The notes under the pieces are model-generated. The model saw nothing but the letters and a program-made list of their open reading frames with translations, was not told the DNA's origin and made no database searches. From the NCBI GenBank assembly GCA_013285465.1, contig CP053449.1, positions 1,822,735-1,886,734 of the forward strand: 64,000 nt of DNA. Reading direction: 5' to 3'. Source of the DNA: Pseudomonadota bacterium. Its GTDB lineage: Bacteria > Pseudomonadota > Alphaproteobacteria > Micavibrionales > CSBR16-224. This document shows, one piece after another, positions 14,349-16,941 of the stretch. The position numbers were made by a program, and so were the translations under genes. How positions within the stretch are numbered: position 1 is the first letter of the stretch; each line of letters begins with the position of its first letter.

Positions 14349-16433
14349 ATGGCCACAGCCGATAACAGCCGCGACCGGATGGAACAAAATACCGCCCCGC
14401 GCCCCGCGGCGGTAAAGGGCGGATTGCACATTCCCGGAACGGATTTTTACATTGATCCCGCAGCGCCGCTGCCGGAATTCTCGAAGCCCCATGCGCCCGC
14501 CTATAGCGCCTTTCAGGCGGAAGGCAATAAAAAATTTGTCGCATTACTGACCGGAAAATCCGTTGTTCCGCGTTTCCGGCAGCTTTCGACGGTCAAGACG
14601 TTCTTTTCGCCCAGCCTGCAGCAATTTCACGGCGGCGGGGCGGTTTTATGGCCGGAGGATAATATTTATTATTATGCCTGCGTCTTTGACAAGCCGCGCG
14701 GCAAGCGCATCATGGACAGCCCCAAAGACGATTTGAATCTGGATATCAGTTACGAAGCAGCGGGAAAACCGCTTTTGACGAAATTCATCGAACCCGCCAT
14801 CCAGCTATTGGCCGAATTGCACAAACATGACATCAGTCACGGCGCGATCAACCTGACCAATATTTACGCCCGTCCCGATTTTTCCACCACCGGCGTGTTG
14901 TTCGGCGAATTCCTCAGCGCACCGCATTCTTATGAACAGAATGTGATTTTTGAGCCTGTCGGACGCTCGCTGGCCGATCCGCTGGGACGCGGGCCCGCCA
15001 AAGACAAACATGATCTTTATGCGCTGGGGGCCTGTGCTGCGCTGCTGGCGCTGGGCAAAAACCCGTTCAAAGGTGCGAAAAACGGCGAAATTATCGCCCG
15101 TAAAATCGAACAGGGCTCCTATGGTGCGCTGGTCGGACGGGAACGTATGCCGCCGGGGCTGGCGGAATTCCTGCGCGCTGTTTTAAACGATGATCTTTCC
15201 GCCCGCTGGGGGCTGGAAGACGCGCTGAAATGGATGGAAGGCAGCCGCATGACGGTCAAGCCCGCCCGTGCAACCGCAAAAGCCGCGCGGTCATTCCAGT
15301 TCGGCGAGCATAATTACAGCTATCTGCGCAGCCTTGTGACCGCCATGGCCAAAACCCCGAATATGACGGCGCAGGTTTTAAAAGACAAGAAACTGCTGCA
15401 ATGGCTGCAGCGCCATATTTCCGACAAAAGCACCATCGCCAATTTCGAGCGCCATTTCGGATCGGATAAAAATCCGGGAGAAAATTACGACAGTCCGTCT
15501 CTGATGGTCGCGCATGCAACCATCGCGCTCGACCCCGACGCCCCCATCCGTTACAAGGGTCTGTCCGTCATGCCTGACGGTTTCGGAAACGCGCTGGCAC
15601 ATGCCGTATTGCATGGCGAAGATAACGCGCCCTATCTCGAAATTCTGCAATACCAGCTTTATAATTACTGGTTTGAAATGCAGCATATCCATCTGCCGGA
15701 CTCCGCTGCGCTGGTGCTGGAGATCGAAAAAGCCCGCAATTTCATGAAACAGAAAATGGTCGGGCGCGGCTTTGAACGCGGGCTTTATATGCTGTGCAAA
15801 GATATGCATTGTCTGAGCCCGACTGTCAGAAAATTCTTTATCCGCGATGCGGCGGGATTGCTGGCCGCCTTTGAGCAAATGGCGGAAGACGGCAAGCTCC
15901 CCGCCATTGACGGCTTTTTCGACCGCCATATTATCGCCTTTCTTGCCGTGCATGAGCCGCAGGTGATCGAGCCGTTCCTCAGCCTGATTTCCTCGAATAA
16001 TGCCGGACGGCGCCTGACAGGCTTGATGCATTGCTTTGCCGCCATCCAGCGCAAATTTGACGGCGGCCCCGCCCCGCAGCTGATCGGCTGGTTTATCCGC
16101 AATATCCGCCCCGCTTTGGAGCGTATCCATGACCGCCGCCTGCGCCAGAAACTGTTTGAACAATTGCAAAAAATGCAGGACACGCAAAGCTTTGATACGC
16201 TGCTGAACGTGATTGATAATCCGGGCGTTATTAACGCAGACCGCAAAAGCTTTTTTGCCGCACGCACGGAATTCACCGTTCTGCAAAATGAACGCATGCA
16301 TCTGCAAAAGCTGCTTGCGCACCGGCATACGCTTGGCAGCGACAAGGGACGGCAAACCGCTATGCTTGTCTCTCTGGGTTTATCATCGCTGATGATTTTG
16401 CTGTCGGTTTTATCCTATTACCACATTATTTAA
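14349..16433 (+). CDS. Tail-anchored protein-kinase-like protein, probably a pseudokinase
   Basis: A 694-residue protein. Residues about 75-295 follow the Ser/Thr kinase C-lobe pattern but with altered catalytic motifs: the HRDxKxxN loop reads HGAINLTNI (164-172), so the catalytic Asp is Ala, and the DFG position reads GEF (186-188). The alpha-F aspartate is kept in KHDLYALGA (D222). Residues about 310-640 are helical and of unknown fold. A single hydrophobic helix near residues 669-690 anchors the C-terminus, leaving the rest cytoplasmic. A 25-base gap leads to the small membrane protein gene. AAGG is placed five bases before the ATG. Confidence 0.65.
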   Translation: MATADNSRDRMEQNTAPRPAAVKGGLHIPGTDFYIDPAAPLPEFSKPHAPAYSAFQAEGNKKFVALLTGKSVVPRFRQLSTVKTFFSPSLQQFHGGGAVLWPEDNIYYYACVFDKPRGKRIMDSPKDDLNLDISYEAAGKPLLTKFIEPAIQLLAELHKHDISHGAINLTNIYARPDFSTTGVLFGEFLSAPHSYEQNVIFEPVGRSLADPLGRGPAKDKHDLYALGACAALLALGKNPFKGAKNGEIIARKIEQGSYGALVGRERMPPGLAEFLRAVLNDDLSARWGLEDALKWMEGSRMTVKPARATAKAARSFQFGEHNYSYLRSLVTAMAKTPNMTAQVLKDKKLLQWLQRHISDKSTIANFERHFGSDKNPGENYDSPSLMVAHATIALDPDAPIRYKGLSVMPDGFGNALAHAVLHGEDNAPYLEILQYQLYNYWFEMQHIHLPDSAALVLEIEKARNFMKQKMVGRGFERGLYMLCKDMHCLSPTVRKFFIRDAAGLLAAFEQMAEDGKLPAIDGFFDRHIIAFLAVHEPQVIEPFLSLISSNNAGRRLTGLMHCFAAIQRKFDGGPAPQLIGWFIRNIRPALERIHDRRLRQKLFEQLQKMQDTQSFDTLLNVIDNPGVINADRKSFFAARTEFTVLQNERMHLQKLLAHRHTLGSDKGRQTAMLVSLGLSSLMILLSVLSYYHII

Positions 16434-16458
16434 CGCAACAAACACACGGAAAACCATC

Positions 16459-16941
16459 ATGGCCCGCACACAAAAAAAACATGGGAAAGCAAATGCGCTG
16501 CAAGTTCTGGTCGCGCTGCTGATGCTGGTCATGCTGGGCATTGCTTTCGCCGGCGCCGCACTTTTCCTGTTCCTTTGCATGATCCCGACCTATATCGCGC
16601 TGTTTATTGACCGTCAGCTGCCGCGGACACTGGGCTTAACCGTCGGCGCGGCCAATCTGGCCGGAACCGTGCCGAATTTTTTGGAAGTTCTGAAGTTGAA
16701 TAATAATCCCGGCAATGCGCTGAGTTTTGCGCTGCAACCTTCAACACTGGCCATGGCCTATGCGGGTGCCGGGATCGGCTGGCTGATCCATCTGGCCGTG
16801 ACGCGTTTTGTCGCGCTGGTGATTGTCAGCAAGGCGGAGATGCGCATCCAGAAACTGGCAAAGCGCGAGCAGGTTCTGATCGAACGCTGGGGGCCGGAAA
16901 TCAAACAGCAATATGGCGGCACAGGCGGCGGCGAAGATTAA
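16459..16941 (+). CDS. Small membrane protein paired with the pseudokinase
   Basis: A 160-residue protein with a basic N-terminus (RTQKKHGK), a hydrophobic hairpin of two helices (about 15-55), a further membrane segment around 95-120, and a charged, soluble C-terminal tail (AEMRIQKLAKREQVLIERWGPEIK). It has no recognised enzyme motif. Position directly after the pseudokinase on the same strand suggests the two work together at the inner membrane. The gene converges on lptB, 28 bases away. The function is unknown. Confidence 0.7.
   Translation: MARTQKKHGKANALQVLVALLMLVMLGIAFAGAALFLFLCMIPTYIALFIDRQLPRTLGLTVGAANLAGTVPNFLEVLKLNNNPGNALSFALQPSTLAMAYAGAGIGWLIHLAVTRFVALVIVSKAEMRIQKLAKREQVLIERWGPEIKQQYGGTGGGED

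Follow-up and report, generated by a model that had tools for sequence, protein, structure and literature searches.

Two adjacent genes lie on the forward strand of the genome of a Pseudomonadota bacterium from the alphaproteobacterial order Micavibrionales (assembly GCA_013285465.1, contig CP053449.1), the first encoding a putative membrane-anchored pseudokinase and the second a small membrane protein, hereafter called the partner. The window analysed is the whole 64,000-nucleotide stretch that contains them (positions 1,822,735 to 1,886,734 of the contig), and the coordinates below count from its first letter. A first-pass annotation, made from the sequence alone, had described a tail-anchored pseudokinase with a dedicated small membrane partner, and had taken the two for a signalling pair that matched no described family name. 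The two open reading frames (ORFs) are on the same strand and separated by an intergenic gap of 25 bp, and profile searches found one place for each gene in the window's genome. The locus is laid out as follows (aa, amino acids).

14349..16433, + strand: pseudokinase gene, an ORF of 694 aa
Residues 1-20 of the 694-aa protein, + strand: low-confidence N-terminal tail in the layout of the pseudokinase gene
14415..15245, + strand: pseudokinase domain, residues 23-299, assigned by structure and profile matches to kinases
14535..14552, + strand: modelled beta-3 strand FVALLT, residues 63-68, with the VAIK lysine missing
14838..14861, + strand: HGAINLTN, in which the HRD aspartate is replaced by Ala and Asn171 is retained
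14904..14912, + strand: GEF, in the position of DFG; the consensus of the family is G-[E/D]-C
15246..16328, + strand: helical domain, residues 300-660
16356..16412, + strand: predicted C-terminal membrane helix, residues ~670-688, followed by six residues; hydropathy 2.15
16459..16941, + strand: partner gene, an ORF of 160 aa for a small membrane protein with a basic N-terminus and a charged C-terminal part
16888..16893, + strand: W144-G145 of the partner, invariant in 37/37 aligned partners; proposed docking point

Relatives were sought in the order (55 genomes, the window's own included), in the class (289) and in the phylum (398). Copy numbers per genome are lower bounds, the few best candidates having been scored in each (at most three for the pseudokinase and twelve for the partner in the class, and two for the pseudokinase and five for the helical domain in the phylum). 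The pseudokinase alignment has 39 members, i.e., the window protein and 38 relatives selected among order and class loci, and the partner alignment has 37 members, likewise selected among the loci collected.

The two proteins

The kinase relationship of the first protein is weak by Pfam, yet it is borne out by structural modelling and profile alignment. Pkinase (PF00069) matches the window protein at E 0.0072, and its 16.2 bits fall short of the gathering score, 31.7; a match at E ≤0.01 is found in 25 of the 39 members, and the pseudokinases of genomes G024, G013 and G010 exceed the cut-off. The AlphaFold2 model, built on the 39-member alignment, has a predicted local distance difference test score (pLDDT) of 89.6, and its residues 23-299, compared by VIA-align with the Protein Data Bank (PDB), match best WNK3 (5o21_B, Z 22.7, 256 residues at 3.0 Å), along with PknA (Z 21.2), KSR1 (20.9) and the JH2 pseudokinase domain of TYK2 (20.8). 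Across the best 50 matches listed, which include the pseudokinases KSR1 and TYK2-JH2, Z runs from 22.7 to 19.9. Furthermore, hhalign against three canonical kinases from relatives gave probabilities of 97.7% (local) and 98.6% (global) and placed HRDLKPAN onto HGAIRPTN. Residues 23-299 are thus confidently predicted to adopt the bilobal fold of protein kinases.

The catalytic motifs of this fold are degraded throughout the family. The replacement of the catalytic aspartate by Ala in HGAINLTN, noted in the first-pass annotation, is correct, and position 166 holds A in 20 members, N in 5, S in 5, C in 3, G in 3, and E, K and R in one each, so that the HRD aspartate occurs in none of the 39. The beta-3 lysine is also lost family-wide, no member having Lys at residues 63-68. 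WNK-type kinases use a substitute lysine; nothing of the kind is seen here, because, within residues 33-56, lysine is shared by at most 10 of the 39 members at any position. The loop between strands beta-1 and beta-2 has no glycine in 18 members and one glycine in 15. The residues retained are N171 (38/39), D222 (39/39) and R286 (38/39). At the place of DFG, G is present in 38 members and is followed by E in 28, D in 10 and Q in one. The letters GEF had been read correctly, whereas their register admits two assignments: the global hhalign alignment sets the acidic residue in the aspartate slot, with a one-residue gap, and the end of the modelled strand sets the glycine there. The family-wide loss of both the HRD aspartate and the beta-3 lysine, as seen in the aligned sequences, points to an old pseudokinase family and to no recent decay of the gene.

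The kinase-like part is followed by a helical domain which, modelled alone with AlphaFold2, reaches a pLDDT of 92.5. Twelve positions of this domain never vary among the 39 sequences (R314, W352, R355, P399, G474, E476, Y480, C488, S490, D525, Q567 and D631), and H527 is nearly invariant. No structural relative was found for it in the PDB (Foldseek best E 1.3; VIA-align best Z 3.8), and the VIA-align comparison with 984 chains gave no match at Z ≥5, which is not proof of a new fold; the search of PDB sequences returned weak matches alone (armadillo designs, E 0.025). In the 398 phylum genomes, the helical domain has 16 clear matches, which coincide with the 16 strong pseudokinase places, and one weak extra match, in G507.

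The conservation of these residues would suit a hidden enzyme, that is, a pocket which catalyzes a reaction other than phosphorylation, as in SelO and SidJ, or an active site in the helical domain that is regulated by the pseudokinase. Along with the invariant E476, C488 and D525 and the nearly invariant H527, this explanation may draw on the conserved acidic residue of G-[E/D]-C, which falls on the DFG aspartate in the global profile alignment, on the conserved N171, and on the similar motif Hgvmntdn that SelO bears, according to excerpts of a 2025 review (PMC12599244). It is nevertheless quite unlikely, as the beta-3 lysine is found in 0/39 members and loop glycines are few, whereas SelO and SidJ retain the lysine in its motif (same excerpts); neither a WNK-like substitute lysine at residues 33-56 nor a fold relative of the helical domain came to light.

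The membrane anchor at the C-terminus, another element of the first-pass annotation, is well supported, as a hydrophobic segment is predicted there in all 39 members. In the window protein it is the single predicted membrane helix, as in tail-anchored proteins. Because the N-side of this helix is richer in K/R in 36 of the 39 members, the pseudokinase and helical domains most likely face the cytoplasm.

The partner shows a hydrophobic stretch at residues ~16-50, then a weaker region, a second hydrophobic stretch at ~105-123 and finally the charged part. It had been called a three-helix protein with a charged tail; the charged tail stands, whereas two hydrophobic segments are clear and the third appears at a laxer threshold only, so that three or four passes are both possible. 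Searches of the 37 partners with Pfam and NCBIfam gave scattered matches, none of them convincing, of one or two members each (best E 0.00065), the best NCBIfam match of the window's partner reaching 15.3 bits where the cut-off is 65; neither collection recognised a sensor domain in the partner, and the partner profile had no match at E 1 among PDB sequences. As anticipated, neither Pfam nor NCBIfam yielded a model specific to the family of the pseudokinase or of the partner. In the public annotation of two Azospirillum relatives, the first protein is named 'serine/threonine protein kinase', and the partner, in one record, 'hypothetical protein'.

Linkage of the pair and its chromosomal site

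Within the order, the pseudokinase is present in 53 of the 55 genomes and the partner likewise in 53. Both occur in 52, each of which has them side by side, the partner being on the 3' side; this count omits three weak pseudokinase places (G048:C49, G003:C24 and G051:C2). The remaining genomes are G016, with the pseudokinase only, G022, with the partner only (assemblies of 220 and 290 contigs, respectively), and G011, with neither.

The same association extends over the class, where the pseudokinase is matched in 100 genomes and the partner in 102: both are found in 99, the pseudokinase only in one (a weak case), the partner only in three (one match being weak and two genomes incomplete), and neither in 186. 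Presence or absence of the two genes therefore agrees in 285 of the 289 genomes. The partner is directly downstream at 102 of 113 pseudokinase places, with a median gap of 54 bp between the profile matches; these 113 places omit two in G118, whose matches are short and weak, although this genome is still counted as the one with the pseudokinase only. Among loci L062-L139, some of which come from one genome, the partner lies beside the pseudokinase in 75 of 78; L075 and L096 are truncated by the end of the contig, and L083 (G272) is a genuine exception. The 11 pseudokinase places without an adjacent partner include partial gene matches (G328:C190, G176:C293 and G151) and places cut by contig ends (G204 and G166). 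Conversely, the partner is unlinked at 15 of 117 places, namely three in G068, three in G200, and one each in G166, G204, G272, G085, G176, G224, G100, G086 and G058, the match in G058 being weak (E 1.4e-4). The dedicated partner of the first-pass annotation is thus upheld, the two genes lying apart in three genomes of the class.

Just one pseudokinase match is found in 87 of the 100 class genomes that have any, and extra copies often come as complete pairs: three pairs are found in G187, two of which stand in tandem, and three in G182, where one partner match is weak; G329 has a tandem of two pairs, and G098, G231 and G326 have two pairs each. The link between the two genes is therefore very strong, yet not absolute, and the partner is shown to be gained, lost and duplicated together with the pseudokinase.

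The pair usually occupies the same chromosomal site. In 48 neighbourhoods, a few of which come from one genome, the recurrent genes are purA (29), rpoH (29), hisZ (26) and serC (20), named from their sequences and from the annotation of Azospirillum thermophilum, and the common arrangement is purA, the pair and rpoH. In terms of families within the order, purA adjoins the pair in f2, f4 and f7, whereas the window's family, f1, has an LptB-like gene instead. In the window, this gene, which we take to be LptB-like from its sequence, is downstream of the pair on the opposite strand, and a presumably ComM-like gene is upstream.

The purA regions of 20 genomes without a pseudokinase match contain rpoH in 8 cases and lack it in 12. 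Both genes of the pair are missing from G083 and G081, where an interval of 68 and 231 bp, respectively, separates purA from rpoH, and hisZ flanks purA on its far side. These are empty sites, and the pair was thus gained or lost long ago at a recurrent chromosomal position.

Full-length matches in the phylum sample are found solely within the class Alphaproteobacteria, among the matches listed; those outside the class are partial and mostly cover the kinase part. The 49 named loci belong mostly to Azospirillum and Niveispirillum, because the scan query came from such sequences. The sole exception to the restriction of full-length relatives to the class is contig L131, labelled Anaerolineae; purA and hisZ accompany the pair there, and the contig may be of alphaproteobacterial origin and wrongly assigned.

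A candidate membrane scaffold

The reading favoured here, with moderate confidence, is that the two genes encode one inner-membrane complex which works without phosphotransfer, as a non-catalytic scaffold; the job of the module is probably structural. In its favour are the lost aspartate and lysine, the strong constraint on the kinase fold and helical domain, the membrane segment predicted in all 39 members and the shared inheritance of the partner. The pseudokinase and helical domains would form a docking platform on the cytoplasmic side, while the tail helix of the pseudokinase would pack on the helices of the partner. The charged C-terminal part of the latter, through its invariant Trp-Gly, might then bind the platform from the same side, and the assembled complex would recruit or stabilise another component of the cell envelope, similar to EssB/YukC and the MviN pseudokinases.

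Several observations weigh against this reading. A further hydrophobic window occurs elsewhere in 7 of the 39 pseudokinases, and E476, C488, D525 and the near-invariant H527 of the helical domain could equally mark an active site. Each gene can also exist without the other beside it: the two lie apart in G272, G085 and G224; G150, G189 and G289 have a second pseudokinase without a partner; and G068 and G200 each have three orphan partners with no pseudokinase within 7-8 kb. In addition, a mirror-tree comparison of 24 loci gave a partial correlation of 0.50 between the pseudokinase and its partner (Mantel 1 of 5000), and of 0.52 with PurA and 0.52 with RpoH for the pseudokinase of the same loci; this comparison is not evidence of specific co-evolution of the pair, because PurA and RpoH correlate equally.

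That the mirror-tree values are alike for the partner, PurA and RpoH would also be expected if the two genes were unrelated neighbours, kept together merely because the chromosomal region is conserved, and so would the frequency of purA, hisZ and rpoH beside them. This explanation is very unlikely, as the window's family f1 keeps the pair beside the LptB-like gene and away from purA, the presence or absence of the two genes agrees almost throughout the class, pairs duplicate as units, and G272, G085 and G224 retain both genes though apart.

Returning to the scaffold, its task would be a housekeeping one, neither defence nor a mobile trait, because the pair is usually found at the same site among biosynthetic genes and is kept in the small complete genomes G101 (1.4 Mb) and G225 (1.6 Mb). 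The recurrent neighbours are biosynthetic genes or rpoH, no scan of the neighbours having been aimed at defence genes.

As for the signalling pair of the first-pass annotation, the pair itself is firm, whereas the signalling part fared less well. According to this explanation, the partner would sense the state of the membrane and shift the pseudokinase platform, which would switch a downstream client. Pseudokinases are described as regulators in the review excerpts (PMC12599244), and in G068 one orphan partner paralogue immediately follows the gene of a hybrid histidine kinase that combines HAMP, HisKA, HATPase, receiver and Hpt domains (L195, G068:C1, 3878-7458). This histidine-kinase link is found at a single locus, though, the partner has no sensor domain recognised by Pfam or NCBIfam, and no Pkinase match in the window's genome exceeds the cut-off. 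A signal-transducing role is accordingly judged unlikely, and a scaffold role fits the evidence at least as well.

A more specific version, in which the pair regulates an active Hanks-type kinase, is also unlikely, because Pkinase finds nothing above its cut-off in the window's own genome. Matches above it occur in six genomes of the order, at the pseudokinase itself in G024 and G013, and at another gene in 4 of the 55 (G004, G010, G011 and G026). The H-x-D motif is present at three of the four loci inspected (two in G011 and one in G010) and absent at that of G004. G011 carries its two Hanks-type kinase genes on one contig (L220, L248), possibly as contamination.

Other paralogues lie near genes of known machines. 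In G289, a single small gene separates the partnerless pseudokinase from the end of a type VI secretion system (T6SS) cluster, with ImpA_N and VasE recognised by Pfam (L210, G289:C5, 4625-14209). A T6SS role was set aside, ImpA_N being found in 0/55 genomes of the order while the E. coli control was positive. In G187, two tandem pairs immediately precede the genes of FlhA, a MotA-family protein and a sigma-54 activator (L212, G187:C2, 3238-12892). A flagellar role was set aside as well, the FlhA search matching that of G187 alone among the loci collected. The partnerless paralogues of G150, G189 and G289 also adjoin a small gene that is presumably VOC/glyoxalase-like (L198, L199 and L200).

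A bolder form of the scaffold reading, offered tentatively, is that the dead kinase, fused to a helical domain whose fold has yet to be solved, and the partner make up the core of a conserved envelope complex, an ancestral and so far unnamed alphaproteobacterial membrane machine that persists even in small genomes and may be needed for normal growth. The module is open to genetic test, as most of the class genomes that have the pseudokinase are single-copy for it (87/100) and the pair occurs in cultivated Azospirillum.

Comparison with known pseudokinases

No publication on this family was found in the literature covered, which leaves out most subscription journals and bioRxiv preprints. About one-third of the sampled class genomes (99/289) carry the pair, for neither protein of which a family-specific model is at hand; if the complex is a scaffold, it would be a widespread addition to the few bacterial pseudokinases of known role. 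Excerpts of the 2025 review (PMC12599244) place seven bacterial pseudokinase families (ActPs1-3, GLW, CP1, DYD and DLHK) among 42 kinase families and discuss EssB, SidJ and SelO as pseudokinase cases. Set beside part of these by published motif, the window protein appears to belong to a new family of a known kind, the bacterial pseudokinase scaffolds, although it may still fall within one of the 42 families.

The kinase domains of class IV lanthionine synthetases, MAD6 and MkoA give weak profile matches over the kinase part of the window protein. These matches, together with that of PD-T4-6, were set aside as generic kinase similarity, because the bit scores are low and, where cut-offs are given, far below them; for the NCBIfam models among them, the window protein reaches 26.2 and 28.4 bits where 460 and 650 would be required.

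The motifs also separate the family from some of the published ones. In the GLW family, as described in the review excerpts (PMC12599244), GLW replaces HRD and a poly-Leu run (LLLL/W) stands at the place of the beta-3 lysine; the present comparison, made by motif with no GLW sequence aligned, found GLW at residues 158-172 in 0/39 members and LLLL at residues 60-72 in 0/39. The AMPylase SelO retains the beta-3 lysine (PMC12599244, in part), which is absent from all 39 members here.

Closer likenesses are found among membrane proteins. The pseudokinase domain of MviN (ActPs3) shares with the present family the presumed non-catalytic recruitment within a transmembrane protein, although, in the same excerpts (PMC12599244), ActPs3 is mainly actinobacterial, has the motif Lsidhpsr and a deletion in the activation loop, and acts after phosphorylation by PknB, whereas nothing in the window's genome passes the Pkinase cut-off.

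EssB/YukC of type VIIb secretion is, like the window protein, a membrane pseudokinase with degraded catalytic motifs (excerpts of PMC9600267 and PMC12599244). It differs in being a protein of Firmicutes with an extracellular domain (PMC9600267, in part), while the window protein has six residues past its helix and a large helical domain before it. EssB/YukC contacts every other component of its system (same excerpts), and, by analogy, the favoured view is that the alphaproteobacterial pseudokinase would work most like such a hub.

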